Source of the DNA: an uncultured Alsobacter sp. | Lineage (GTDB): Bacteria; Pseudomonadota; Alphaproteobacteria; Rhizobiales; Beijerinckiaceae | Length of the DNA: 64,000 nucleotides | Assembly: GCF_945952055.1 (NCBI RefSeq) | Contig: NZ_CAMFHB010000005.1 | Coordinates: forward strand, 62,001-126,000 | Reading direction: 5' to 3' | Shown: piece by piece, positions 1,801-64,000 of the stretch | Layout: every line of letters starts with the position of its first letter | Numbering within the stretch: the stretch's first letter is position 1 | The notes under the pieces: generated by a model | What the model saw: the letters and a program-made list of their open reading frames with translations, nothing else | What the model was told of the DNA's origin: nothing | Database searches by the model: none | Position numbers and translations under genes: made by a program

Positions 1801-3552
1801 ATGGTTGTGACTCGTCATTTGCGGGTACTCCCTCTCTGCCTTGCCGGCGTGGTGATCGCGGCCGCCGGTTCGGAGGGCGCATTGGCCCAGTCCGCCTCCC
1901 AGATCACGCCCCCCAGCTTTCGTCCCGCCGCGACGCGCTCCGGCGGGTCCATCGTGTTCTCGGGGCAGCCCGGCCTCGATACGCCCGAGGGCGCCGACCG
2001 CCTCTCGGTCACCCTGTCGGGCGTCGCCGTCGTCGGTGACGTGCCCGACAGGACCGGCGAGCTGGCGGCCCTGAAGGCACGCCTCGTCGGCCGGAGGATC
2101 CCCGCGTCCGAGATCTTCGCCGCGGTTCGCGAGCTGGAAGCCGCCTATGCCCGGGCGGGCTTCGTGCTGATGCGCGTGGTGCTGCCCGCGCAGACGCTGA
2201 AGGACGGCGGCCTGCTCAAGCTGGCGGTGGTCGACGGCGTGATCGAGCGCGTTGACTACCGCACCATGTCCGACCGGATCAAAGGCCGCATCGCGGCCGT
2301 GGTCGAACCCCTCGTCGGCCGCAGGGGCCTCACGCTCGCCGAGATCGAGCGGCGGCTCCTGATCGCCGGCGACACGCCCGGCGTCGCGCTGCGCTCGGCC
2401 CTGAAGGCGGGCAAGACCCCCGGGACCACGGTCCTGGTCCTGGAGCCGCGCTACCACGCGCTCGGATCCTTCGTGGGTTTCGACAACACCCTGTCCGGGC
2501 AGCTCGGCCGCTCCCAGACGACCGTCGGCCTGGACGCCAACTCGGTCCTGTCCCAGGGTGAGCTCATCTACCTGAGGGCCGCGGGGCACCTGGGCAACAC
2601 GACCAACGGCAACGGCGGTCTCGTGGACGAGGATCCGCGCGTCCGCACCCTCGCCGCGGGCGTGGTCGTGCCGCTGGGCCAGGACGGGCTCACCTTCAAC
2701 CTCGAGGCCGCCAAGAGCCGGACCACGCCGAAGCCGGCACCGGGCCTGCCGGCGCTGCAGTCCTACAGCACCTTCGACCGCGTCTCGGGCCGATTGCGCT
2801 ACCCCTGGATCCGGTCTCGTGCCCTGACCGTGTCCTCGGAACTGTCGTTCGACATCGAGAACGCCCTGCAGGGGGTTCTCTTCGCCCAGCAGCACACGCC
2901 GGTGGCGAAGGACCGGCTGCGGGTGCTGCGCCTGTCGTCGGACGCGGCCTACAACACCGACACGCTCGGCCTCGTGTCCGGCAAGGCGACGCTGTCCTTC
3001 GGGCTTCCCGCGTTCGGCGCCCGCTCCGGAACCGCCGCATCGTTCTACCCTCTCTCGCGGACGGGGTCGTCGCCCGAGTTCCAGAAGCTCGAGGTCGCCG
3101 CGAGCTACGGCAAGCGGCTGTTCGACCACGCGGACGTGGCGCTCTATGCCCGCGCGCAGACCTCGTTCAACCAGGCCCTACCCCAGGCCGAGCAGATCGG
3201 CTTCGCCTCGTTCCAGGAGCTCTCGACCTTCAACGCCGGCGCGCTCGGCGGCGACAGCGGATGGGTCGTGCGCGGCGAAGTCTCGTCGCCGTGGGACGTC
3301 CGCTTCGAGGAGTTGCAGTGGCGGGTCGCCCCCTACGTCTTCGCCGCCACCGCCGGCCTCTCCCTGAGCAAGCCGACGGCGGTGGAACAGGCGACCACGC
3401 GCGCAAGCTCCATCGGCCTCGGGCTGCGCGTGCTGTCGGCCATCGACGTGTTCTCGCAAGCCAGCGTCACCATCGAATTCGGCCGTGCCTATCGCGACGA
3501 CGGAGGACCCGACTCGAATCGGTTCACCGTCGTCGGGGCGGTGCGCTTTTGA
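1801..3552 (+). CDS. TpsB outer-membrane transporter (ShlB/FhaC/HecB family)
   Basis: This 583-residue protein has a signal peptide (about residues 1-30, ending ALAQ), a POTRA-like domain at about 68-155 (starting LSVTLSGVAVVGDV) and then a long beta-barrel region ending in a C-terminal Phe, as in Omp85-type barrels. TpsB proteins recognise the N-terminal TPS domain of one partner exoprotein in the periplasm and export it through the outer membrane. The partner gene starts 30 bases downstream. The ATG at 1801 is the only start that keeps the signal peptide, since an in-frame stop lies just upstream. Its Shine-Dalgarno sequence (AGGA at 1784) is unusually far away. Confidence 0.93.
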   Translation: MVVTRHLRVLPLCLAGVVIAAAGSEGALAQSASQITPPSFRPAATRSGGSIVFSGQPGLDTPEGADRLSVTLSGVAVVGDVPDRTGELAALKARLVGRRIPASEIFAAVRELEAAYARAGFVLMRVVLPAQTLKDGGLLKLAVVDGVIERVDYRTMSDRIKGRIAAVVEPLVGRRGLTLAEIERRLLIAGDTPGVALRSALKAGKTPGTTVLVLEPRYHALGSFVGFDNTLSGQLGRSQTTVGLDANSVLSQGELIYLRAAGHLGNTTNGNGGLVDEDPRVRTLAAGVVVPLGQDGLTFNLEAAKSRTTPKPAPGLPALQSYSTFDRVSGRLRYPWIRSRALTVSSELSFDIENALQGVLFAQQHTPVAKDRLRVLRLSSDAAYNTDTLGLVSGKATLSFGLPAFGARSGTAASFYPLSRTGSSPEFQKLEVAASYGKRLFDHADVALYARAQTSFNQALPQAEQIGFASFQELSTFNAGALGGDSGWVVRGEVSSPWDVRFEELQWRVAPYVFAATAGLSLSKPTAVEQATTRASSIGLGLRVLSAIDVFSQASVTIEFGRAYRDDGGPDSNRFTVVGAVRF

Positions 3553-54272: not shown

Positions 54273-54393
54273 CGGGACTTCCATTGCAGGGAACGATCGG
54301 GCGGCGGGCCGCTGCCCATAGATGGGTGCTCCCTGGTCGTCCGGGAACCCGGGACCCGTGGCGCGGGTTGCTCGGGTCCGCCAGGGCCACGCC

Positions 54394-55668
54394 ATGACCT
54401 CCTCCCCCGACCGCATGACCGACATCCCGCAGCCCGACGACGGCCTCGTCGTCGATCCCCAGGACGCCGCGGCGTCCGCCGGGCTGAACTACGTCTCCGA
54501 CGAGGAGCCCGGGATCCGCCGCCGGGCCGCCGGCAAGGGCGTCTCCTTCATCGACCCCAAGGGCACCGCCATCCGCGATCCGGCCGCCCTGCAGCGGATC
54601 AGGTCGCTCGCGATCCCGCCCGCCTGGACCGACGTCTGGATCTGTCCCGATCCGGAGGGTCACATCCAGGCCACCGGCCGGGATGCCAAGGGCCGCAAGC
54701 AGTACCGCTATCATCCGCGCTGGCGCGAGGTGCGCGACGGGTCGAAGTTCGAGCACATGATCGACTTCGCCCGTGGCCTCCCGGCCCTGCGCGAACGGGT
54801 GGCCGCCGACATGTCCCGCCGGGGGCTGCCGCGCGAGAAGGTGCTGGCCACCGTGGTCCACCTCCTCGAGAACACGCTGATCCGGGTCGGCAACGCGGAC
54901 TACGCCAAGCAGAACAAGAGCTACGGCCTGACCACCCTGCGCGACAGGCACGTCGACATCGACGGCGGCGACATGCGCTTCGCCTTCAAGGGCAAGAGCG
55001 GCCGGACCTGGAAGCTGCGCGTGCAGGACCGCCGCATCGCCCGTATCGTGAAGGCCTGCCAGGACATCCCGGGCCAGCACCTGTTCCAGTACTACGACGA
55101 GGAGGGGCAGCGGCATCCCGTCACCTCCTCCGACGTCAACGGCTACCTGCGCGAGGCGACCGGCCGCGAGATCACGGCGAAGGACTTCCGCACCTGGCAC
55201 GGCACGGTGCTTGCCGCGGTGGCGCTCAAGGAGTTCGAGGCGATCGACGGCGCGGCGCGGACCAAGAAGGCCGTCCGGGAGGCCATCGAGCGCGTCGCCG
55301 CGCGGCTCGGCAACACGCCCACGATCTGCCGCAAGTGCTACGTCCATCCCGAGGTGGTGAACGCCTATCTGGAGGGCGGGCTCCTGCCGGAGGTGCGGGA
55401 GGACATCGAGCAGGAGGTGCGCCAGGAGCTCAGCCACGACCTGCACGCGCTGAAGCCGGAGGAGGCCGCCCTGCTGGCGCTGCTGCAGGCGAGGCTGGCC
55501 GATGCGCGCGATCCCGGCACGGCACTTCGGCAGAAGCTCAACGCGTCGCTCGAAGGGCCCAGGCCCGCGCGTCCCAGAGGCGGAAAGGCTGCTCAGGCCC
55601 GTGCAGCGGCGAAAGTGCCTCGCACACCTCCAAAGGACCGGCCTGCGCGTCGTCGTAGCTCCAGTTGA
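54394..55668 (+). CDS. DNA topoisomerase IB (poxvirus type)
   Basis: From ATG 54394 the protein has 424 residues. The catalytic Tyr316 is in RKCYVHPEVV; Arg and Lys partners are in YRYHPRWREVRDGSKF, GRTWKLRVQD and DFRTWHGT. It relaxes supercoils with a 3'-phosphotyrosine link. The end is a basic, Ala/Pro-rich tail of about 45 residues, encoded antisense to the last 131 bases of the next (convergent) methyltransferase gene. Confidence 0.94.
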   Translation: MTSSPDRMTDIPQPDDGLVVDPQDAAASAGLNYVSDEEPGIRRRAAGKGVSFIDPKGTAIRDPAALQRIRSLAIPPAWTDVWICPDPEGHIQATGRDAKGRKQYRYHPRWREVRDGSKFEHMIDFARGLPALRERVAADMSRRGLPREKVLATVVHLLENTLIRVGNADYAKQNKSYGLTTLRDRHVDIDGGDMRFAFKGKSGRTWKLRVQDRRIARIVKACQDIPGQHLFQYYDEEGQRHPVTSSDVNGYLREATGREITAKDFRTWHGTVLAAVALKEFEAIDGAARTKKAVREAIERVAARLGNTPTICRKCYVHPEVVNAYLEGGLLPEVREDIEQEVRQELSHDLHALKPEEAALLALLQARLADARDPGTALRQKLNASLEGPRPARPRGGKAAQARAAAKVPRTPPKDRPARRRSSS

Positions 55669-56374
55669 GGATCACGGCCGTTCCACCGGGCCTGAGGACA
55701 CGGGCGATGTCCCGCATCATCGCGCCGGCGACGGACCCGCCGGCCCGCGTGAGATAGGGCATGACGTCCACCGCCAGCACGGCGTCGACGCTGCCCGATC
55801 GCACGCACGCCAGGTCCTGCCCGGGCACCTGCGCCAGCAGAAGGCCGGGGTGGCGCCCGCGCGCCACGGCGAGCATCCGGCCCGAGACGTCGAGGCCGAT
55901 CACCTCCATGCCCTTGGCCAGGAGGGCCCCGGCGACGCGGCCCGTTCCGCAGCCGAGGTCGAGGACGCGCGCGCCCGGGCGCAGATCAGCCCAGGCCTGC
56001 ACGAGATCCACCACCTCCAGGGTCGCGGCGGCGAGCAGGTCCGGGTCGCCCAGGGCGTAGAGCGCCATGGCCGCGTCGGGTGCCGTGTCGGCCAGCGCGT
56101 CGAAGACCGCCTGCCAGCGGGCCGGATCACTGCCGATGCCCGCATGATCGGCGCGTGCGAGCACCGACCGCACGAGGCCGAACGCCGTCGGATGCGCGCG
56201 CCAGAGCCGGTCCAGCGCGTGGAGGTGCCCCGCGTCGCGCGCGAGGGCTGCATCCAGCGCCCGCCGGGCCTCGTCCTCGCTGCCCGGCGCCGCCATGAGC
56301 CGCAGCAGGGCCACCGGAGCGGGCCAGTCGCCGCGCGCGGCTCCCGCCAGCACCTCGTCGACGGTCTCAGCCAT
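55538..56374 (-). CDS. Class I SAM methyltransferase, last gene of the glycan cluster
   Basis: The 278-residue protein has a helical N-terminal half of about 110 residues and then the SAM motif RVLDLGCGTGRVAGALLAKG, GLDVSGRML and a DVMPYLTRAGGS segment. ATG 56374 overlaps the acyltransferase end by 8 bases. It is the last gene of the operon and shares its 3' end with topoisomerase IB on the other strand. Acceptor unknown; a sugar or lipid is plausible from context. Confidence 0.85.
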   Translation of the reverse strand: MAETVDEVLAGAARGDWPAPVALLRLMAAPGSEDEARRALDAALARDAGHLHALDRLWRAHPTAFGLVRSVLARADHAGIGSDPARWQAVFDALADTAPDAAMALYALGDPDLLAAATLEVVDLVQAWADLRPGARVLDLGCGTGRVAGALLAKGMEVIGLDVSGRMLAVARGRHPGLLLAQVPGQDLACVRSGSVDAVLAVDVMPYLTRAGGSVAGAMMRDIARVLRPGGTAVILNWSYDDAQAGPLEVCEALSPLHGPEQPFRLWDARAWALRATR

Positions 56375-57344
56375 CGCCCGTTCTCCGCCAGGCCACCCGC
56401 AGCAGCGGTCGTTCGACCGCCCCCCAGGCTGCCTTGTAGGGTTCGTCGCCGCGCAGCAGGTCGAGCGCCAGGTCGCCGCGCGCGATGGCGCGCAGCACCG
56501 CCTCACCCATCAGGACCGTCCCGGGACTCTCGAAGGCGAATTGCGGGTCGAAGCCGCCGAGCCAGGCATAGCTGCGCCCCGCCGCCCTGAAGCCGCAGTG
56601 GACCCCCGCCACGGCGCCATCGATCGTGAGGACGAGCCCCTCCAGCAGCCCGGCCCTCGCGAGCGCGGGGATGGCGACGCGCACGAAATCGGCCATGCGC
56701 GGATCGGCGAAAACGCCGCCTGCCGCGGGATCGTGGCGCTCGGCATTCAGCGCGATGAGGCGGTCCGCGAAGGCGGCCGCACCGGCATCCCCGGCCCGGT
56801 CCACCGCCACGCCGCCACGCCGGGCCGCGCGGTGGCCTGCCATGCGCCATTTTCGCCAGCGGGACGAGGGCACGGCCTCCTGCCCCCGGTCGAGGTCGAT
56901 CACCGCGGAAGAGCTTCCCGGCAGGACCTCGCGGCTCCAGCCCGGCTGCGGCGCGAGAGCGAGCAGCCGCCCGCCCGGCGGCACGTCCGGCCACAGGACG
57001 TCGCCGTCGCCCACGCTGGCGGCGATCGCCGCGGCCAGTCTCGCGGCGGCCTCGGGCGCGCCGGAGTCCACCAGCACGTCGGTGCGGTCGGAGGGTCCCA
57101 CGCCCATGGGCAGCACGAACCCCGAGGCCGGATCCCGGTAGAGGGGGGCCAGGGCCATCAGACGCTCCCCCTCGCGGACGGCGGCCACGACCGGCGGACC
57201 CGGCGCGAAGACGTCCCACCAGGCCAGGATCCAGTCCGGATGCTGGAACGGATCGCCCTGGGCCCGCTCCCACAGCGACAGCCATGGCGATCGCAACGCC
57301 CGCAGTGCGGCGATCGGGTCGGTCGGGGACAGGACCGGGCTCAT
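56367..57344 (-). CDS. GNAT-fold acyltransferase, CelD/BcsL-like
   Basis: The 325-residue protein has the start DPFQHPDWILAWWDVFAPG, a middle RWRKWRMAGHRAARRGG and the end MGEAVLRAIARGDLALDLLRGDEPYKAAWG, the pattern of CelD-like acetyltransferases (double GNAT). These N- or O-acylate sugars in polysaccharide loci. Next to a PIG-L deacetylase it would re-acylate the freed amine. It overlaps both neighbours by 4 to 8 bases. Confidence 0.82.
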   Translation of the reverse strand: MSPVLSPTDPIAALRALRSPWLSLWERAQGDPFQHPDWILAWWDVFAPGPPVVAAVREGERLMALAPLYRDPASGFVLPMGVGPSDRTDVLVDSGAPEAAARLAAAIAASVGDGDVLWPDVPPGGRLLALAPQPGWSREVLPGSSSAVIDLDRGQEAVPSSRWRKWRMAGHRAARRGGVAVDRAGDAGAAAFADRLIALNAERHDPAAGGVFADPRMADFVRVAIPALARAGLLEGLVLTIDGAVAGVHCGFRAAGRSYAWLGGFDPQFAFESPGTVLMGEAVLRAIARGDLALDLLRGDEPYKAAWGAVERPLLRVAWRRTGDG

Positions 57345-58387
57345 GCGGCGCCGGCCGCGACCGTCCGGCGGTAGAGCGCGAGATAGGCGTCGGTCATGGC
57401 GCGCAGCGAGAACCGCCGGCGGGCGACCCCGCGACAGACCTCGGGATCGATGGCGTCGCAGCGGGAGATCGCCGCGGCCATGCCCGCGACGTCGTCGACG
57501 ATGAAGCCCGTGCGGCCGTCCTCCACCGTGTCGGGCAGCGCACCGGCACGAAACGCGATCACCGGCGTGCCGCACGCGGCGGCCTCCCTGGCGACGAGCG
57601 AACTCGTCTCCGGGACGAGGGAGGGGATGAGAACGCAGCGCGCCGCGCTGAGGAGCCTGCGCTTGCGTTGGAAGTCGACGGGTCCGAGCCAGCGTCGCTG
57701 GCGGTCGAGGCGCGGCAGGACTTCGTCGTCGAAATAGCGGCGATGCGCCGCGTAGTTGAACGTCTCCCCCGCGACGAGGCACGGGATCTCCGCGCGGATC
57801 GCGGCGTCGAGAGCCAGGTGCACGCCCTTTTCCGGACAGACCCGGCCGAGAACGAGCGCGAAGCCGCGGCGGGCATGCCGCGCGCGGGCGAGGTCCTCGA
57901 CCGGAACGCCGTTCTCGATGGGGGGCACCGCGCGGGCCTCCGGCGGCAGCCCCTGCGCCTGGCTTGCCGACACGGGCACCAGCGTCAGGTCCGCGGGAGG
58001 CTCCCGGATCAGGGCGGGCGGGTACCAGTCCACCGGAAGATGCAGGGTGAGGAGGGCGGGCACGCCGGGGGGCGGCAGGGTCTCGGCGGCGTCGATGCCA
58101 TGCAGGTGCACGAGGTCGACGTCGTCCTCCATAAGGGAGGCGTCGATGGCGGCCCGCACATGCGCATGGATCGACAGCCGGGCGGTTTCCTCGATCCGTC
58201 CGGCATGAGCCGGGACGGAGCGCAGCACGCCGCTGACGACGGAGCCCGCGCAGGCGACCACCGTCGAGCGGCAACCGGCCTCGACGAGCGCGGCGTCGAG
58301 CGCCGCGGCGATCTGCTCGGCGCCACCCACCGCGTCGGGGCCGACGGGCGCGAAGGGATAGGCGACGGTGAGGACGTGCGGGCTCAT
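57341..58387 (-). CDS. Glycosyltransferase family 4
   Basis: The 348-residue GT-B enzyme has GGAEQIAAALDAALVEAG near the start, VHLHGIDAAE, the donor region LVLGRVCPEKGVHLALDA and ETSSLVAREAAACGTPVIAF with the conserved Glu pair (E-x7-E). GT4 retains the donor configuration and uses NDP-sugars; MshA of mycothiol synthesis is a family member. ATG 58387 overlaps the deacetylase stop by 4 bases. Confidence 0.92.
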   Translation of the reverse strand: MSPHVLTVAYPFAPVGPDAVGGAEQIAAALDAALVEAGCRSTVVACAGSVVSGVLRSVPAHAGRIEETARLSIHAHVRAAIDASLMEDDVDLVHLHGIDAAETLPPPGVPALLTLHLPVDWYPPALIREPPADLTLVPVSASQAQGLPPEARAVPPIENGVPVEDLARARHARRGFALVLGRVCPEKGVHLALDAAIRAEIPCLVAGETFNYAAHRRYFDDEVLPRLDRQRRWLGPVDFQRKRRLLSAARCVLIPSLVPETSSLVAREAAACGTPVIAFRAGALPDTVEDGRTGFIVDDVAGMAAAISRCDAIDPEVCRGVARRRFSLRAMTDAYLALYRRTVAAGAA

Positions 58388-59268
58388 GGCAGGGGTCGCC
58401 ATGACCACGGACCGGGGCGGCGCGCGGCGGGCAGGCCGGCGAGCGGGGACAGCCCGAGGGCCCGGCGCGCCATGCGGGCGCGACGCAGGAAGGCGGTGGA
58501 GTTCATGCCCCAGCCGAAGCGGTCGTAGAGGACGCGCCCGGCATTGGGCGGCCTGCTCAGGTCGGGCGCGGCGGCGAGCCGCAGGGCTTCGATCCGCTGG
58601 TCGAAGCGCGCCAGCGTGGCGGCCTGCGTGCGAAACGCCGCGATCATGCGGCCCTTCACGTCGCGCAGGGCGGGCGGCAGGCGCACGGCCGCCGTGTCGG
58701 CCGGCCGGCGGTCGCGAAAGCCCCGCAGGAAGGCGCCGGACCCGTCGTCCCGATACAGCGGCATGGCCAGCACCACGGGCGCCTTGCGCCCCGCCACGTG
58801 AAGCAGGGCCACGGCGGCATGGACGGCGACGCTGACCGCGTCGTGGTCGGGGTGCCCGCCTTCGAACGCGTGCGTGACGACGATGTCCCGGCCGGCCAGC
58901 CGTGGCAGGAGGGCGCGGGCGATCCCGCGGATGGCAGCGGTCGCGCCCTGGTCCGCGATGCCCAGCGCATGACGGCGATGCCGCGGGACGGACAGCAGGG
59001 CCAGCGCGGCGTCGAGTTCGCCGCGCCGTGCCGCGGCATAGGCGGCGGCCGTCGCGAAGCCGGCCCGCCGCGCATCGTGCAGGGATCGCGGCGCGCCGTC
59101 CGTGACGTGCACCAGAGCCAGGCGCCGAAAGCGCGCGAGCATCGCCGTGGCCCCCAGCGTCTCGTCGTCGGGGTGCGCCACGACCACGGCGGCCGACCGG
59201 CCGAAGGGCCAGCAGCCCGACGCCGCGAGCTTCAGCAGCGCGCGCGGATGGAGACCGGAGCGGGGCAC
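58384..59268 (-). CDS. PIG-L (LmbE) family N-deacetylase
   Basis: The 294-residue protein has the zinc motif AHPDDE (31-36) and HPDHDAV later, both typical of PIG-L deacetylases such as MshB. They remove acetyl from N-acetylglucosamine-containing glycosides. The GTG at 59268 is the start. It lies between the glycoside hydrolase (7-base gap) and the GT4 (overlap). Confidence 0.93.
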   Translation of the reverse strand: MPRSGLHPRALLKLAASGCWPFGRSAAVVVAHPDDETLGATAMLARFRRLALVHVTDGAPRSLHDARRAGFATAAAYAAARRGELDAALALLSVPRHRRHALGIADQGATAAIRGIARALLPRLAGRDIVVTHAFEGGHPDHDAVSVAVHAAVALLHVAGRKAPVVLAMPLYRDDGSGAFLRGFRDRRPADTAAVRLPPALRDVKGRMIAAFRTQAATLARFDQRIEALRLAAAPDLSRPPNAGRVLYDRFGWGMNSTAFLRRARMARRALGLSPLAGLPAARRPGPWSWRPLP

Positions 59269-59275
59269 GTCCGCC

Positions 59276-60181
59276 TCACGCCGCGACCGCGCGCGCCGGC
59301 GCGTAGCGCCGGATCATGCTGCCGCAGAACTCCGCGAACTCGCGCGGATCGATGGGCGGGCTCGTGTGATGCGGCTCGATCCCGCGATGCTCCGGGGTGA
59401 AGCAGAAGGTCACGGTGACGTCGAAGGGCGCCAGCGCTTCCATCTGGCGGTCAAACCAGTCGAGCGCGCCGGGCCGGAAGCTGTCGGCCCAGGACAGGCC
59501 CGTGCGCAGATACTTGACCCCGAGCCGCTTCATCCAGCCGACGGCCTCGTCGAGGCGCGGGTCCTCGAAGTGGAACCATTGGCAGAGCCCCATCTGCGCG
59601 GCATGGCGCTCGTAGAGCGCCAGCGCCGGCTTCGGCGTGCCGTCCTCGCGCAACAGGCCCATGTGGAAATGCCGGTAGTAGGAGGACCCTTCCGCCTCCT
59701 TGTGGCGGGTGGTGGCCGGCCACGCCTTGGGCAGGTCGTAGAGGCTGTACCAGTGGATCCGCGGCACGCGGCCGACGAGCAGCGCCGCCGTCCGCTCGAG
59801 GCCCCAGGCCTGCACCTCTTCCGCGCCGAAGCTCGAGACGCCGACTTCCGAGACCCAGAGCGGCAGGCTCGTCACGGCGCGGATCTCGTCGAGCTTCTCC
59901 GGCCATTCGTGGATCGTCCACAGGTTCCAGTCGAGCGGGAACCCGTGCACGGCGACCACGTCGATCTCGTTGAAGACGCCGCGGTCGGCCATGTTGCGCA
60001 CGAAGCCGGGATCGATCGGCGACATGCCGCCCAGCGCCCGCGGAAGCCTGTCGTTCTCCGCCCGGATGGCGCGGCCGGCGAGAATCGCCATCTCGGCGAA
60101 ACGCGACCAGTCGGGATCGATGAGCGGGTCCCAGTGCGACTTGTTGTTCGGCTCGTTCCAGATCATGGCGGCTTCGATCAT
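59276..60181 (-). CDS. Glycoside hydrolase, clan A (beta-xylosidase/GH39-like)
   Basis: The 301-residue TIM-barrel protein has the acid/base Glu10 in WNEPNNK and the nucleophile Glu112 in LWVSEVG, with IHWYSLYDLPKAW later. This is the NEP/SEVG pattern of retaining clan-A hydrolases. There is no signal peptide, so it works in the cytoplasm. It overlaps the upstream methyltransferase by 4 bases. In a biosynthetic operon it may act as editing enzyme or transglycosidase. Confidence 0.83.
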   Translation of the reverse strand: MIEAAMIWNEPNNKSHWDPLIDPDWSRFAEMAILAGRAIRAENDRLPRALGGMSPIDPGFVRNMADRGVFNEIDVVAVHGFPLDWNLWTIHEWPEKLDEIRAVTSLPLWVSEVGVSSFGAEEVQAWGLERTAALLVGRVPRIHWYSLYDLPKAWPATTRHKEAEGSSYYRHFHMGLLREDGTPKPALALYERHAAQMGLCQWFHFEDPRLDEAVGWMKRLGVKYLRTGLSWADSFRPGALDWFDRQMEALAPFDVTVTFCFTPEHRGIEPHHTSPPIDPREFAEFCGSMIRRYAPARAVAA

Positions 60182-60948
60182 CGGGTCCTCCCACGGGCCG
60201 GATAGACGGGGACGGCGTCGGCCGGGCGCTCGGCGAGCCGGCAGACGAAAACCTCGGGCTCGGGCCGGCTCTCGATGGCGAAGCCGGCGCTGCGCAGCAT
60301 GGCCGCGGCACAGGGCCCGTTGGGGATCCACCAGTTGGTGGGGTCGCGCGCATAGCGCCGTTCGACGAAATGCAGCCGGGGCCAGTCGGGCCGGTCGAAG
60401 ACCGCGGTTTCCGAGAAGGGATAATCCTCGGCCGGTGGCTCGCCGTCGGCCACGCCGCGCTGCAGGGCCTGGAACACCATCATGTCGCCCGCGACGTGCT
60501 CGCGGATGAGGTCGAGCGCGAGGAGCGGGTGGCGAAGGTGGTAGAGCACGCCCATGAACAGCACGAGGTCGAAGCGCTCGCCGAGCGCGCCGACGTCGTA
60601 GACGTCGAGGCGGTGGAACTCGATGTCCTGCTCGAGCACTTCGGCGGCGAAACGGGCCTGGGCCAGGTAGTCCTCGTCGCTGTCGATGGCGACCACGCGC
60701 GCGGCGCCGCGCCGCTTCATGGCGATGGCGTAGAACCCGCCGTTGCAGCCGATGTCGAGAACCGATTTGCCGGTCAGGTCCGCCGGTAGGGCGTGCGAGA
60801 ACCCCGCCCATTTGGCGCCTGGGTAGTCCCCCAGGAAGTGGTCCGGCGCCGTCCAGACGCCGCCCAGGTCGATGTTGTGGAACCACGGCCCGAGCGCGTC
60901 GGCCCTGCGGCGGATCTCTTCGGGATCGACCTGCCGGTGCGCGCTCAT
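60178..60948 (-). CDS. CmoB-like SAM methyltransferase (possibly TIGR04290 family)
   Basis: The 256-residue protein has PWFHNIDLGGVWTAP, then KSVLDIGCNGGFYAIAMKRRGA (SAM site, split at about 62-80), GVLYHLRHPLLALD and NWWIPN near the end, the pattern of CmoB-like enzymes. From memory this subgroup is TIGR04290, which I could not verify. It overlaps its neighbours by 4 bases each side. Confidence 0.87.
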   Translation of the reverse strand: MSAHRQVDPEEIRRRADALGPWFHNIDLGGVWTAPDHFLGDYPGAKWAGFSHALPADLTGKSVLDIGCNGGFYAIAMKRRGAARVVAIDSDEDYLAQARFAAEVLEQDIEFHRLDVYDVGALGERFDLVLFMGVLYHLRHPLLALDLIREHVAGDMMVFQALQRGVADGEPPAEDYPFSETAVFDRPDWPRLHFVERRYARDPTNWWIPNGPCAAAMLRSAGFAIESRPEPEVFVCRLAERPADAVPVYPARGRTR

Positions 60949-61775
60949 GACGGCCTCCCCGATGCTGCGTCGCGCGCCGTCGGCACGGGGCCTTCGAACG
61001 GTCGACCCTCGGGCCGGCCCAACGTCGCGCCGCGGCCTTCGGCGGCGAGCATGCCGGGGTCGTGCAGCAGCCCGAGAGCCGCGCGGTAGCCGTTGAGGGT
61101 GCCCACGTCGACGTAGCGCGACCCCGCCTTCACGGCCTCCGCGCGCCCGCCCCGTGCGATCCAGGCGTTGACCAGCGTGCCGAAGTATTCGTCCCGGCAC
61201 TGGCGTTCCAGCCAGAGATCCCGCAGTTCGCCGAAGACCCGACCCGGCATCTTGAACGCTCCCCAGATCCAGCGGGAGCGCACCGGCGTGCTCTTCACGT
61301 CGATGGCCTGGACGCGGCCGTCGTCGTCGCAGACCACCGCGTCGAAGACCTCGGGCCGCTCGACGGGAAAGAGGAGGAAGCTCAGGGTGTGCGACGGCAG
61401 CACCGCGAGCGCGTCGGCCGGGAACCAGACCGTGTCCGGCAGGCCCACGACGACGGGTTCGTCGGGGTGGATCAGGGGCAGGGCCCGGAAGACCGCATCG
61501 CACAGGCCGCTTGCCCGGGGCTGCACCACATAGGCGATGGCGGCCGGGCCATAGGCCGCGCCGTAGTAGTCGAGGATGTCCGACTTGCCGGGGGCGATGA
61601 CGAAGCAGATCTTGTCCGCCCCGCCCCGCAGCATGCGCTCGACCAGGTATTCGCTGACGGCGCAGGGCCGTTCCGTTTCGCCGTCGGTCCGCGTGCCGAC
61701 GGGCAGCAGTTCCTTCGAGAAGGCCAGCGGCTGGATGCGGGTGCCCCGTCCGGCTGCCGGAATGATACCCCACAT
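60945..61775 (-). CDS. NDP-sugar pyrophosphorylase (nucleotidyltransferase)
   Basis: The 276-residue protein has the signature GIIPAAGRGTRIQPLAFSKE near the N terminus, GLPDTVWFPADAL and VDVGTLNGYRAAL near the end, the layout of glucose-1-phosphate thymidylyl- or uridylyltransferases. It makes the activated sugar for the cluster. It overlaps the methyltransferase by 4 bases. Confidence 0.92.
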   Translation of the reverse strand: MWGIIPAAGRGTRIQPLAFSKELLPVGTRTDGETERPCAVSEYLVERMLRGGADKICFVIAPGKSDILDYYGAAYGPAAIAYVVQPRASGLCDAVFRALPLIHPDEPVVVGLPDTVWFPADALAVLPSHTLSFLLFPVERPEVFDAVVCDDDGRVQAIDVKSTPVRSRWIWGAFKMPGRVFGELRDLWLERQCRDEYFGTLVNAWIARGGRAEAVKAGSRYVDVGTLNGYRAALGLLHDPGMLAAEGRGATLGRPEGRPFEGPVPTARDAASGRPS

Positions 61776-61776
61776 G

Positions 61777-62877
61777 TCAGACCTCCTTGGCGACGTTGGC
61801 CGTGCGGCGCACGGCGAGCGCTGTCTCCAGCGCGGAGACCAGCGTGTCCGCCCGCCGCCGCGCCGTGTGTTGCTCGAGCAGCCGGGCGCGGGCCGCGCTG
61901 CCGATGCCGGCCAGCGCCTCCGGCGGCTCGGACAGCGCCGCCAGGACGTCCTGCGTGTCGCGCGCCACGATGATCTCGCGGCCGGGCTCGAAGAAGTCCT
62001 CGAGCCCGGGCCATGCGTCCGACACGATCGCCGCCCCGCATGCCGCCGCCTCGAAGAGCCGGCCGGACGGGCACCAGCCGGCCTCGGCCATGGCCTCGCG
62101 CGTCACGTTCAGGGTGAGCAGGGACGAGGCGTAGAAGGCCGGATGGTCGACGGGAGGAAGATGCCGGACGAAGTGGATGTTCTGCGTCCAGGGAAAGTCC
62201 TGCGGGTACTGCGCCCCGGCCAGGACGAAGCGGCGCCACGGCGCCAGCCGCGCGGGCTCCACGAAGAAGGCCTCGACGCCCGCCTGCCTGTCCGGTGCGT
62301 AGGTGCCGATGTAGGACAGGTCGGCCTGGAAGGCCGCCCGGGGCGCCGCCGGGCGATGAACGGCCGGATCGGCATGGCCGTAAAGCGGCACCACCGCACG
62401 CGCGCCGAGATCGTCGCGCAGGCGCTGCAGGGCAGGGCCGCCGGTGTAGCTCAGCACGAGATCGTAGTCGGCGAGCCCCTCCGGGCCGATTGCCGTCTGG
62501 GGCTCGCCACGCGCGATGAGCGACAGGGTGACCGGCGTGTCGAGGTCGTAGAACACCTTCAGCGGAGCCCTCTCGCGGCGCAGAAGCGCGAGGGCGGCGA
62601 TGCCGTCGGGGCAGTAGGACGTCACGATGGCCGCGTCGGCGGCACCGAGCATGTGGCCGGCACGGACGCGGATCTCGCGCCAGTCCCGGTAGAGGATGAG
62701 TTCGCAGCCCGGCACATGCGTCGCGTCGCGATGCTGCGCGTACCAGGGCTGGTCGCGCTCGTAGAAGACGACCTCGTGCCCGAGCTTGCCGAGCGCCGCG
62801 ATCAGTCCGCGCCACAGCGTGGCGTGGCCATTGCCCCACGATGAGGAGACCGAGAGCCCGAAGATCACGATCTTCAT
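61777..62877 (-). CDS. Glycosyltransferase, CgeB-like
   Basis: The 366-residue GT-B protein starts MKIVIFGLSVSSSWGNGHAT and has DLSYIGTYAPDRQ, then GRLFEAAACGAAIVSDAWPG and FEPGREIIVA, as in CgeB-like transferases. It is distinct from the GT4 in the same cluster, so two sugars or two linkages are made. It starts 4 bases inside the phosphatase end. Confidence 0.9.
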   Translation of the reverse strand: MKIVIFGLSVSSSWGNGHATLWRGLIAALGKLGHEVVFYERDQPWYAQHRDATHVPGCELILYRDWREIRVRAGHMLGAADAAIVTSYCPDGIAALALLRRERAPLKVFYDLDTPVTLSLIARGEPQTAIGPEGLADYDLVLSYTGGPALQRLRDDLGARAVVPLYGHADPAVHRPAAPRAAFQADLSYIGTYAPDRQAGVEAFFVEPARLAPWRRFVLAGAQYPQDFPWTQNIHFVRHLPPVDHPAFYASSLLTLNVTREAMAEAGWCPSGRLFEAAACGAAIVSDAWPGLEDFFEPGREIIVARDTQDVLAALSEPPEALAGIGSAARARLLEQHTARRRADTLVSALETALAVRRTANVAKEV

Positions 62878-63473
62878 GGCGCGGCCCTCTCGTTGAGCCG
62901 CATCAGCGTGAGCCGATCGTCCTGCACGCGGAGCGTCGTCAGCGACGCCGGGTCCAGCGCGATCCTGGGCCAGGCGTCGGGCCCCAGACCGAGCGCGGCC
63001 AGCACGAGCATCCGGATGGGCTCGGCATGGCTTACCGCGACCACGCCGGCGTCCGGCCAGTCGCGTGCGACCCGGCGCAGGAACGCCATCCCGCGGGCCT
63101 GCAGCGCGAAGGCGTCTTCGCCGTCCGGGGCCGCCGCCATCGCGCGGCTCGCGTTCCAGCGCGTCCAGTCGCGATCGTCCGCCAGGTCGGCGAAGCGACG
63201 GCCGGTCCACCCCCCCGCATCGAGCTCGTCGAGCAGGGGATCCGCGGCCGGTTGCAGCGCGATCCGCTCCGCCAGGATGGCCGCCGTCTCGCCGCAGCGC
63301 TGGCGCGGGCTCGAGAACAGCGCCTCGACTTCCTCACGCGCGAGCCTGGCGGCCAGGGCGGCGGCTTCGGCGCGGCCCGTCTCGGACAGGCTCACGCCGG
63401 GAGCGCGGGCCACGAGGGTGGAATCCACGACCGCGTGGCTGGCATGGCGCACGAGGTGGACCAGGGTCGCCAC
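62874..63473 (-). CDS. Histidine phosphatase family protein
   Basis: The 199-residue protein has the phosphohistidine motif LVRHAS (Arg9-His10; usually RHG), the SSPRQRCGETA segment and the second His in VSHAEPIR. It would remove a phosphate, perhaps from an inositol-phosphate glycoside. It lies 4 bases after the inositol-phosphate synthase. Confidence 0.92.
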   Translation of the reverse strand: MATLVHLVRHASHAVVDSTLVARAPGVSLSETGRAEAAALAARLAREEVEALFSSPRQRCGETAAILAERIALQPAADPLLDELDAGGWTGRRFADLADDRDWTRWNASRAMAAAPDGEDAFALQARGMAFLRRVARDWPDAGVVAVSHAEPIRMLVLAALGLGPDAWPRIALDPASLTTLRVQDDRLTLMRLNERAAP

Positions 63474-63477
63474 CGCC

Positions 63478-64000
63478 TCACGCCTCCCCGGCGATGAACC
63501 GGAGCGTGCGGGCCCGGGCCTCGGCGTCGGGCACCTGGTCGGGCGGGGATTTCATGAAGTAGCTGGAGGGGCCGGTCAGGGCGCCGCCGATGCCGCGGTC
63601 GCGCGCCAGCTTGGCGCAGCGCACCGCATCGATCACGACGCCGGCGGAGTTGGGCGAGTCCCAGACCTCGAGCTTCAGCTCCAGGTTGAGAGGCACGCCG
63701 CCGAACGTCGTCCCCTCCATGCGGATGTGGCACCACTTGCGATCCTCGAGCCACGGCACGTGGTCGCTCGGCCCGACATGGACGTCCTCGGCCGCCAGCG
63801 GGACATCGAGCATGCTCGTGACCGCTCGCGTCTTGGACAGCTTCTTCGACTCCAGGCGCTCGCGTTCGAGCATGTTCAGGAAGTCGGCGTTGCCGCCGAA
63901 GTTCAGCTGGTAGGTGCGGTCGAGCCGCACGCCCCGGTCACGGAACAGCGTCGTCAGGACACGATGGACGATCGTCGCGCCGACCTGGCTCTTGATGTCG
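63478..64000 (-). CDS. Inositol-3-phosphate synthase, 5' part outside window
   Basis: The last 173 residues are visible. They match the C-terminal part of bacterial inositol-1-phosphate synthase: [39 protein letters not shown] and [22 protein letters not shown], with [11 protein letters not shown]. The enzyme converts glucose-6-phosphate to inositol-3-phosphate with NAD. It is the first visible gene of the cluster; more may lie upstream. Confidence 0.93.

Follow-up and report, generated by a model that had tools for sequence, protein, structure and literature searches.

The window analysed here, a 64-kb stretch (bases 62001-126000) of a 210.5-kb contig from an uncultured Alsobacter sp., ends inside a long run of minus-strand genes, which we followed past the window end. 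We tentatively read this run, giving the reading slightly less than an even chance, as a stress-response-controlled oligosaccharide-biosynthesis cluster, whose product would probably be a soluble stress protectant. The cluster is shared by many bacteria, and its gene content and modules recur across genera. Judging by its predicted promoters, it appears to be under the control of the alphaproteobacterial general stress response (sigma EcfG). It also encodes a predicted glycosidase, GHx, which by sequence and modelled fold is a circularly permuted relative of PslG (glycoside hydrolase family GH39). That the permuted glycosidase goes with inositol synthesis is the most surprising part, and was absent from the first-pass annotation of the window, which had described a ten-gene inositol-linked glycan operon.

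The gene run and its predicted EcfG-type promoter

The window part of the run consists of ten minus-strand open reading frames (ORFs) at 55538-64000, with gaps of 1-7 bases or overlaps of 4-8 bases, as the first-pass annotation had it, and one transcription unit is likely. The size of this unit had been misjudged, however, as the count of ten simply reflects the window end. The run goes on for another 9.8 kb, on the minus strand throughout, adding eight enzyme genes and a small one, so that the window shows only the downstream half of a run of 18 enzyme genes and one 98-aa gene. In the order of transcription, these are the 98-aa gene, two SDR genes (SDRa and SDRb), a gene for a B12-binding radical-SAM protein, the GT4 glycosyltransferase gene GT4a, three genes of CgeB-type glycosyltransferases (CgeBa, CgeBb, and CgeBc), and the UDP-xylose-synthase-like SDRc, followed by the window's ten. 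The gaps in the upstream half are also small, the widest being 86 bases ahead of SDRc. Positions of the upstream genes are given in L006, a 20-kb stretch at this locus; the window position equals the L006 position plus 54999. The 98-aa gene (L006 18551-18847, window 73550-73846, minus strand) matches neither Pfam nor NCBIfam families at E 0.01; its relatives were seen at 15 of 46 sampled loci.

A GGAAC-N16-CGTT motif is located 36 bases ahead of the ATG of the 98-aa gene (L006 18883-18907, minus strand). This is the sole GGAAC-N17/18-GTT match in the 20 kb of L006, and of the five such matches in the 64-kb window none is placed ahead of this run. In excerpts of two transcriptome studies, the EcfG motif is given as GGAAC-N16-CGTT in Sphingopyxis (PMC7083833) and as GGAAC-N17-20-GTT in Sphingomonas (PMC6599016), and the site fits the latter as well. 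The genome also has two NepR matches over the cut-off.

To place the run among its relatives, two samples were used. The first was anchored by the CmoB-like methyltransferase MT1 of the run, which has at least 576 relatives in named genomes; the best-scoring 80 loci were kept, and the set is therefore biased toward the window's own form of the cluster. The second was drawn by TIGR04290, the family of MT1, alone. Matches over the cut-off were found in 10 of 299 genomes of a phylum sample, 7 of 144 and 14 of 387 genomes of class samples, and 32 of 297 genomes of an order sample, giving 46 distinct genomes, 32 of them from the order sample. Two of these 46 genomes share MT1 with two of the 80 loci.

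In the 80 loci, the motif is present at 51 of the 103 module-start regions, compared with a mean of 0.58 and a maximum of 4 in plain letter shuffles. The spacing is 17 in 39 cases and 18 in 12, while every other spacing between 8 and 27 has five matches or fewer. Counted by locus, the motif occurs in 40 of the 66 testable loci and in 20 of 34 genus-like groups. The 46-genome sample yields a similar picture: 40 of 74 regions (mean 0.375 and maximum 3 in plain letter shuffles of the 74), and 32 of the 45 testable genomes, including five of the ten that lack the inositol-3-phosphate synthase INO1. Here the motif precedes the 98-aa gene in 8 of 12 regions, and with those regions set aside it is retained in 32 of 62.

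Beside the cluster, on the plus strand of the window (54322-55668), there is an ORF that by eye resembles a type IB DNA topoisomerase. This family is found near the cluster in 8 of the 80 loci, and 5 of the 67 extra genes inside their runs are assigned to it by Pfam. Topoisomerase IB is listed as EcfG-dependent in S. melonis in the excerpt of PMC6599016; the EcfG-dependent glycosyltransferase genes of S. melonis (about #3505-3509) could not be tied to the cluster.

Modules across genomes

The 80 loci come mostly from Alphaproteobacteria, with relatives in Sorangium cellulosum and in metagenome-assembled genomes labelled Myxococcota, Acidobacteriota/Terriglobia, and Pedosphaera. Their genes fall into three modules: SDRa-SDRb-(radical-SAM)-GT4a-CgeBa-CgeBb-CgeBc-(SDRc), or module A; INO1-HP-(CgeBd-NTP)-MT1-GHx, or module B, where HP is a histidine phosphatase and NTP is nucleotidylyltransferase-like; and PIG-L-GT4b-GNAT-MT2, or module C. 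Among called genes, MT1 and GHx adjoin in 74 of the 75 loci with both, CgeBd and NTP in 46 of 46, and INO1 and HP in 55 of 58. Of the 61 loci that span 19 kb or more, 22 have module C, counted as at least three of its genes, as do 15 of the 46 sampled genomes, and in both sets it always accompanies CgeBd-NTP.

The family names given earlier to INO1, HP, CgeB, NTP, MT1, PIG-L, GT4, GNAT, and MT2 agree with Pfam and NCBIfam, but the expectation that the ten genes stay together across relatives failed. All ten occur together in 8 of the 46 genomes and, by tblastn, in 8 of the 80 loci, some of which are cut by contig ends. Rather than one set, the window's ten are parts of three separable groups, INO1-HP, CgeB-NTP-MT-GH, and PIG-L-GT4-GNAT-MT. 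As modules come and go in both samples, the ten genes as a fixed unit are ruled out. The first-pass annotation had named two observations that would speak against it, and one was made, as modules do occur apart in relatives; the other, a capsule or lipopolysaccharide (LPS) locus in the upstream flank, was not.

Several other families recur at these loci. A protein of about 570 aa without a Pfam match at E 0.001 lies near the cluster in 17 of the 80 loci (e.g., L092 6325-8028), and two enzyme families, zinc alcohol dehydrogenases (also in 17 loci) and Gfo/Idh/MocA proteins (in 15), recur there too, with L094 15127-16083 and L073 12643-13629 as examples of the two. A PF01676 metalloenzyme, which we take to resemble phosphopentomutase, is located within the cluster or close to it in 8 loci (e.g., L044 15090-16214).

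The permuted glycosidase and inositol synthesis

At E 0.01, neither Pfam nor NCBIfam recognises GHx (59276-60181, minus strand); the Pfam family Glyco_hydro_cc, at E 0.094, is below its cut-off. The closest solved relative by sequence is PslG, which aligns in swapped halves, GHx 3-192 with PslG 132-327 and GHx 201-295 with PslG 26-130. Rotated GHx gives one alignment with PslG (32.9 bits, E 3.6e-7), compared with 18.7 bits and E 0.008 for the unrotated protein. Both Glu motifs of PslG are retained; E10 and E112, which occupy the sites of these two catalytic-type motifs, are invariant in 42 sequences, and the protein starts within about 10 residues of the WNEPN motif in 75 of 75 loci with a called gene. 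The AlphaFold2 model (pLDDT 89.7, pTM 0.89, residues 155-166 below 50) has eight predicted strands, which we read as a TIM barrel in the order 4-8 and then 1-3. VIA-align superimposes residues 1-195 of the model on PslG with 24% identity over 175 residues at 2.2-2.3 A, the highest identity among the structures in its list. The C-terminal third stays unaligned, as it should with a sequential aligner. The sequence and fold matches together with both Glu motifs place GHx with GH39/PslG-like enzymes, while the canonical barrel order 1-8 is not followed.

An unpermuted version exists in nine INO1-less genomes, where it is the leading domain of a fusion with SDRb encoded by a single ORF of 640-685 aa. 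A profile of seven such domains matches PslG 22-305 in a single stretch (E 5.9e-6), whereas the best stretch for a profile of 42 permuted domains is PslG 133-319 (E 4.7e-7). In the 46 genomes, the permuted form accompanies INO1 in 35 cases and the unpermuted form accompanies its absence in nine; no genome has the unpermuted form with INO1, and one, G426, an assembly of about 270 contigs, has the permuted form without it. In the remaining genome, G443, no glycosidase was seen on its 8-kb contig. HP follows the same line, being present at the locus in 35 of the 36 genomes with INO1 and in 0 of the 10 without it. The Fisher p-value for the association of the glycosidase form with INO1, computed without regard to kinship, is 1.1e-8. 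A quick tree built from five core proteins of 86 loci implies at least five changes of the glycosidase form, four of them forced by well-supported branches, and five changes of INO1; a tree of MT1 only implies three changes of the form. The form and INO1 agree in 4 of 4 independent pairs (sign test p 0.125), which is not significant after accounting for kinship.

The claim that inositol is a rare building block in Alphaproteobacteria is borne out for its synthesis, as PF01658, the synthase family of INO1, is present in 14 of the 144 genomes of the class sample. By comparison, the cluster genomes carry it in 36 of 46 cases, and the genomes without TIGR04290 in the 144-genome sample in 13 of 137. 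Among the 80 loci, INO1 is at the locus in 65 and missing from 15. We searched 15 genomes for it elsewhere: 14 of those with an INO1-less locus (L078 excluded) and that of L038, which has a piece of INO1 at its locus. A TIGR03450 copy is present elsewhere in 5 of the 14, and a more distant PF01658 synthase in seven further ones, 12 of 14 in total; equivalently, of the ten genomes without a TIGR03450 copy elsewhere, L038 included, seven have a PF01658 synthase. No PF01658 synthase was found elsewhere in the genomes of L038, L068, and L091. The relocated or distant synthases would fit a need for inositol in the permuted form, but may serve other ends. In Sorangium, about 5.5 kb separate a more distant type of inositol-phosphate synthase (G307:C1:7825052, the record of L077) from the edge of the locus analysed, and a second copy is far away.

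INO1 as the core of the whole cluster family was suggested by the 80 nearest loci and contradicted by the class-wide sample, which led us to consider a pathway with two interchangeable forms. In the inositol-free form, an unpermuted GH39-type domain would be fused to the epimerase; in the inositol form, a freed, permuted glycosidase would be coupled to INO1 and a dedicated histidine-type inositol phosphatase and would act on the glycosyl-inositol bond. That a new class of inositol-capped, methylated stress oligosaccharides is made in this way across many Alphaproteobacteria is a rather doubtful proposal; Sorangium and metagenome-assembled genomes labelled Myxococcota or Acidobacteriota have relatives of the cluster.

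The predicted product and its alternatives

We infer the product, its sugars, and its solubility from what is known of the families; all the genes are on the minus strand. SDRc (L006 9571-10590; UDP-xylose synthase UXS1, 354 bits) would make UDP-xylose or a close relative, and SDRb (L006 16383-17429; CDP-tyvelose 2-epimerase, 276 bits) and SDRa (L006 17426-18538; generic epimerase matches only) would make other nucleotide sugars. GT4a (L006 13998-15092) and CgeBa-c (L006 10677-14001), named so by Pfam and NCBIfam, may assemble a short glycan, which MT1 (60178-60948; TIGR04290, 371.5 bits, cut-off 300) and the radical-SAM enzyme (L006 15094-16386; TIGR04295 B12_rSAM_oligo, 710 bits, cut-off 400) would methylate. 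GHx may trim, edit, or transfer. In this version of the cluster, free inositol, the most likely acceptor giving a non-reducing product, would be supplied by INO1 and HP. The former (63478-64000, extending to 64560 in the contig; 360 aa) matches PF01658, TIGR03450 (537 bits, cut-off 638), and the Mycobacterium tuberculosis INO1 structure 1gr0 (500 bits); the latter (62874-63473; PF00300, 147.6 bits; TIGR03848, 137 bits, below the cut-off of 204) is a candidate inositol-phosphate phosphatase. The sugar-1-phosphate nucleotidylyltransferase-like NTP (60945-61775; PF00483, 33.7 bits; weak RmlA/GalU matches in the PDB) and CgeBd (61777-62877; PF13524, 133.9 bits) would add a further sugar. Module C would add an amino sugar that is deacetylated, acylated, and methylated. 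It comprises a PIG-L-type deacetylase (58384-59268; PF02585, 63.9 bits), the GT4-type GT4b (57341-58408; PF13692, 68.1 bits), a PF13480-type acyltransferase, GNAT (56367-57344; 99.4 bits), and the SAM-dependent methyltransferase MT2, the last gene of the run (55538-56374; PF08241, 58 bits). The overlap of PIG-L and GT4b is 4 bases if the latter starts at the ATG at 58387, a possible start, and 25 if it starts at the GTG at 58408.

No convincing 19-residue hydrophobic stretch was seen in a hydropathy scan of the run proteins, the highest mean being 1.71 at one position. The absence of Wzx/Wzy flippases and polymerases, ABC exporters, and lipid-carrier transferases, which the first-pass annotation had noted, extends to the upstream genes and thus to all 19 genes of the run, the only part of the genome searched for them. 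Together with the stress promoter, this makes a soluble protectant preferable to a surface glycan, although it does not prove it. A capsule or LPS locus was rejected, as no such genes are present in the upstream half of the run and no clear membrane segment is encoded.

A surface glycan or glycolipid, such as an LPS core decoration, an exopolysaccharide side unit, or a glycosylated lipid, with the carrier and exporter encoded elsewhere, is on the unlikely side. Six glycosyltransferases, three epimerase-type SDRs, and methyltransferases are what envelope loci contain, and the 67 extra genes include pyruvyl transferases and UDP-glucose dehydrogenases. This reading has to accommodate an 18-gene run without a clear membrane protein. 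The extra genes match 46 Pfam families, and the 25 of these that were listed contain neither a flippase or polymerase nor an ABC exporter (the search did not extend to export genes in the whole genome). A single Na+/H+ antiporter was found among the extra genes, and one ABC ATPase family in the flanks of 4 of the 80 loci. An exported secondary metabolite or signal of an aminocyclitol-like kind, or a glycan of flagellin or another protein, seems improbable. Radical-SAM enzymes, PIG-L, methyltransferases, and inositol supply are all known from such pathways, yet nothing in the 25 commonest neighbour families (seven of them run against Pfam) or in the extra run genes was recognised as an efflux pump, a resistance gene, or a gene for a target protein, and the stress promoter favours a protective role. 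Finally, a mycothiol-like low-molecular-weight thiol, with glucosaminyl-inositol formed by INO1, GT4, and PIG-L before a GNAT step, was rejected as very improbable: these four families do occur together and the best INO1 model is TIGR03450 'mycothiol_INO1', but the scores for MshA (44 of 462.5 bits, GT4b), MshB (16 of 224), and INO1 are all below the cut-offs, no MshC exceeds its cut-off in the genome (the best match, 272 against 485 bits, is probably cysteinyl-tRNA synthetase), and PIG-L, GT4b, and GNAT are present in just 9, 16, and 15 of the 46 genomes.

Several observations weigh against the soluble, stress-controlled, inositol-based oligosaccharide that we prefer. The extra genes include four pyruvyl transferases, four or five UDP-glucose dehydrogenases, and four F420-dehydrogenase-like proteins, all of them families also known from exopolysaccharide loci, and export or lipid-carrier genes could lie elsewhere in the genome. 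Inositol as the acceptor is a guess: no PF01658 synthase was found at E 1e-10 in 10 of the 46 genomes, and distant synthases elsewhere, e.g., in Sorangium, may serve other lipids. The association of INO1 with the cluster rests mainly on the order sample; the 144-genome class sample taken alone shows none (1 of 7 genomes with TIGR04290 and 13 of 137 without, p 0.52). As for control, other genes of the 80 loci carry the motif at spacing 17 in 28 and at 18 in 11 of 314 control regions (39 of 314 in this stricter set, 52 of 378 in a looser one), and in the 46-genome sample in 43 and 17 of 492, so that a part of the signal may come from a stress-gene neighbourhood. Moreover, the motif is absent from all five Roseomonas loci, three of four Belnapia loci, and the tested Myxococcota and Acidobacteriota-type loci.

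Related systems and implications

MT1 and the radical-SAM enzyme score over the curated cut-offs of TIGR04290 and TIGR04295, both NCBI families of the type 'hypoth_equivalog' without an assigned function. NCBI curators had thus already set these proteins apart, and 'oligo' in the name of the latter presumably stands for oligosaccharide. No mention of TIGR04290, TIGR04295, or Rta_06860 was found in the literature, nor a paper combining three of CgeB, INO1, glycosyltransferase, radical SAM, and PIG-L. Among the matches listed, seen in excerpt, none named such a cluster or described a permuted glycosidase of GH39 or clan GH-A.

Four known systems share features with the cluster. PslG of the Pseudomonas aeruginosa Psl locus is the closest solved relative of GHx and has both Glu motifs, but the barrel order of GHx is permuted, GHx lacks a hydrophobic segment, and its run lacks exporter genes. 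A natural permutation of a glycosidase barrel is known from GH70 relative to GH13 in clan GH-H, while GHx has a GH39/clan GH-A-like barrel. The actinobacterial mycothiol pathway likewise combines an INO1-type synthase, GT4, PIG-L, and an acyltransferase, and differs in the scores and the MshC given above. A parallel in control is the EcfG-controlled synthesis of trehalose as an osmoprotectant in Alphaproteobacteria, described in the excerpt of PMC6599016. Like the predicted product of the cluster, trehalose is a soluble carbohydrate made under a stress sigma factor, but by other enzymes and a much shorter pathway, and EcfG control of the cluster is itself predicted.

If our reading is true, an unrecognised stress metabolite would be made in bacteria such as Methylobacterium, Mesorhizobium, Microvirga, Devosia, and Roseomonas, all represented by named loci, and EcfG is a candidate switch to turn it on for isolation. 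HP occurs along with INO1 and could be an inositol-phosphate phosphatase that does not belong to the usual IMPase family. Normal and permuted glycosidases would form a natural pair within a single kind of biosynthetic cluster, in which the permuted member goes with a particular building block, and this pair offers a testable case of permutation accompanying a changed enzyme job.

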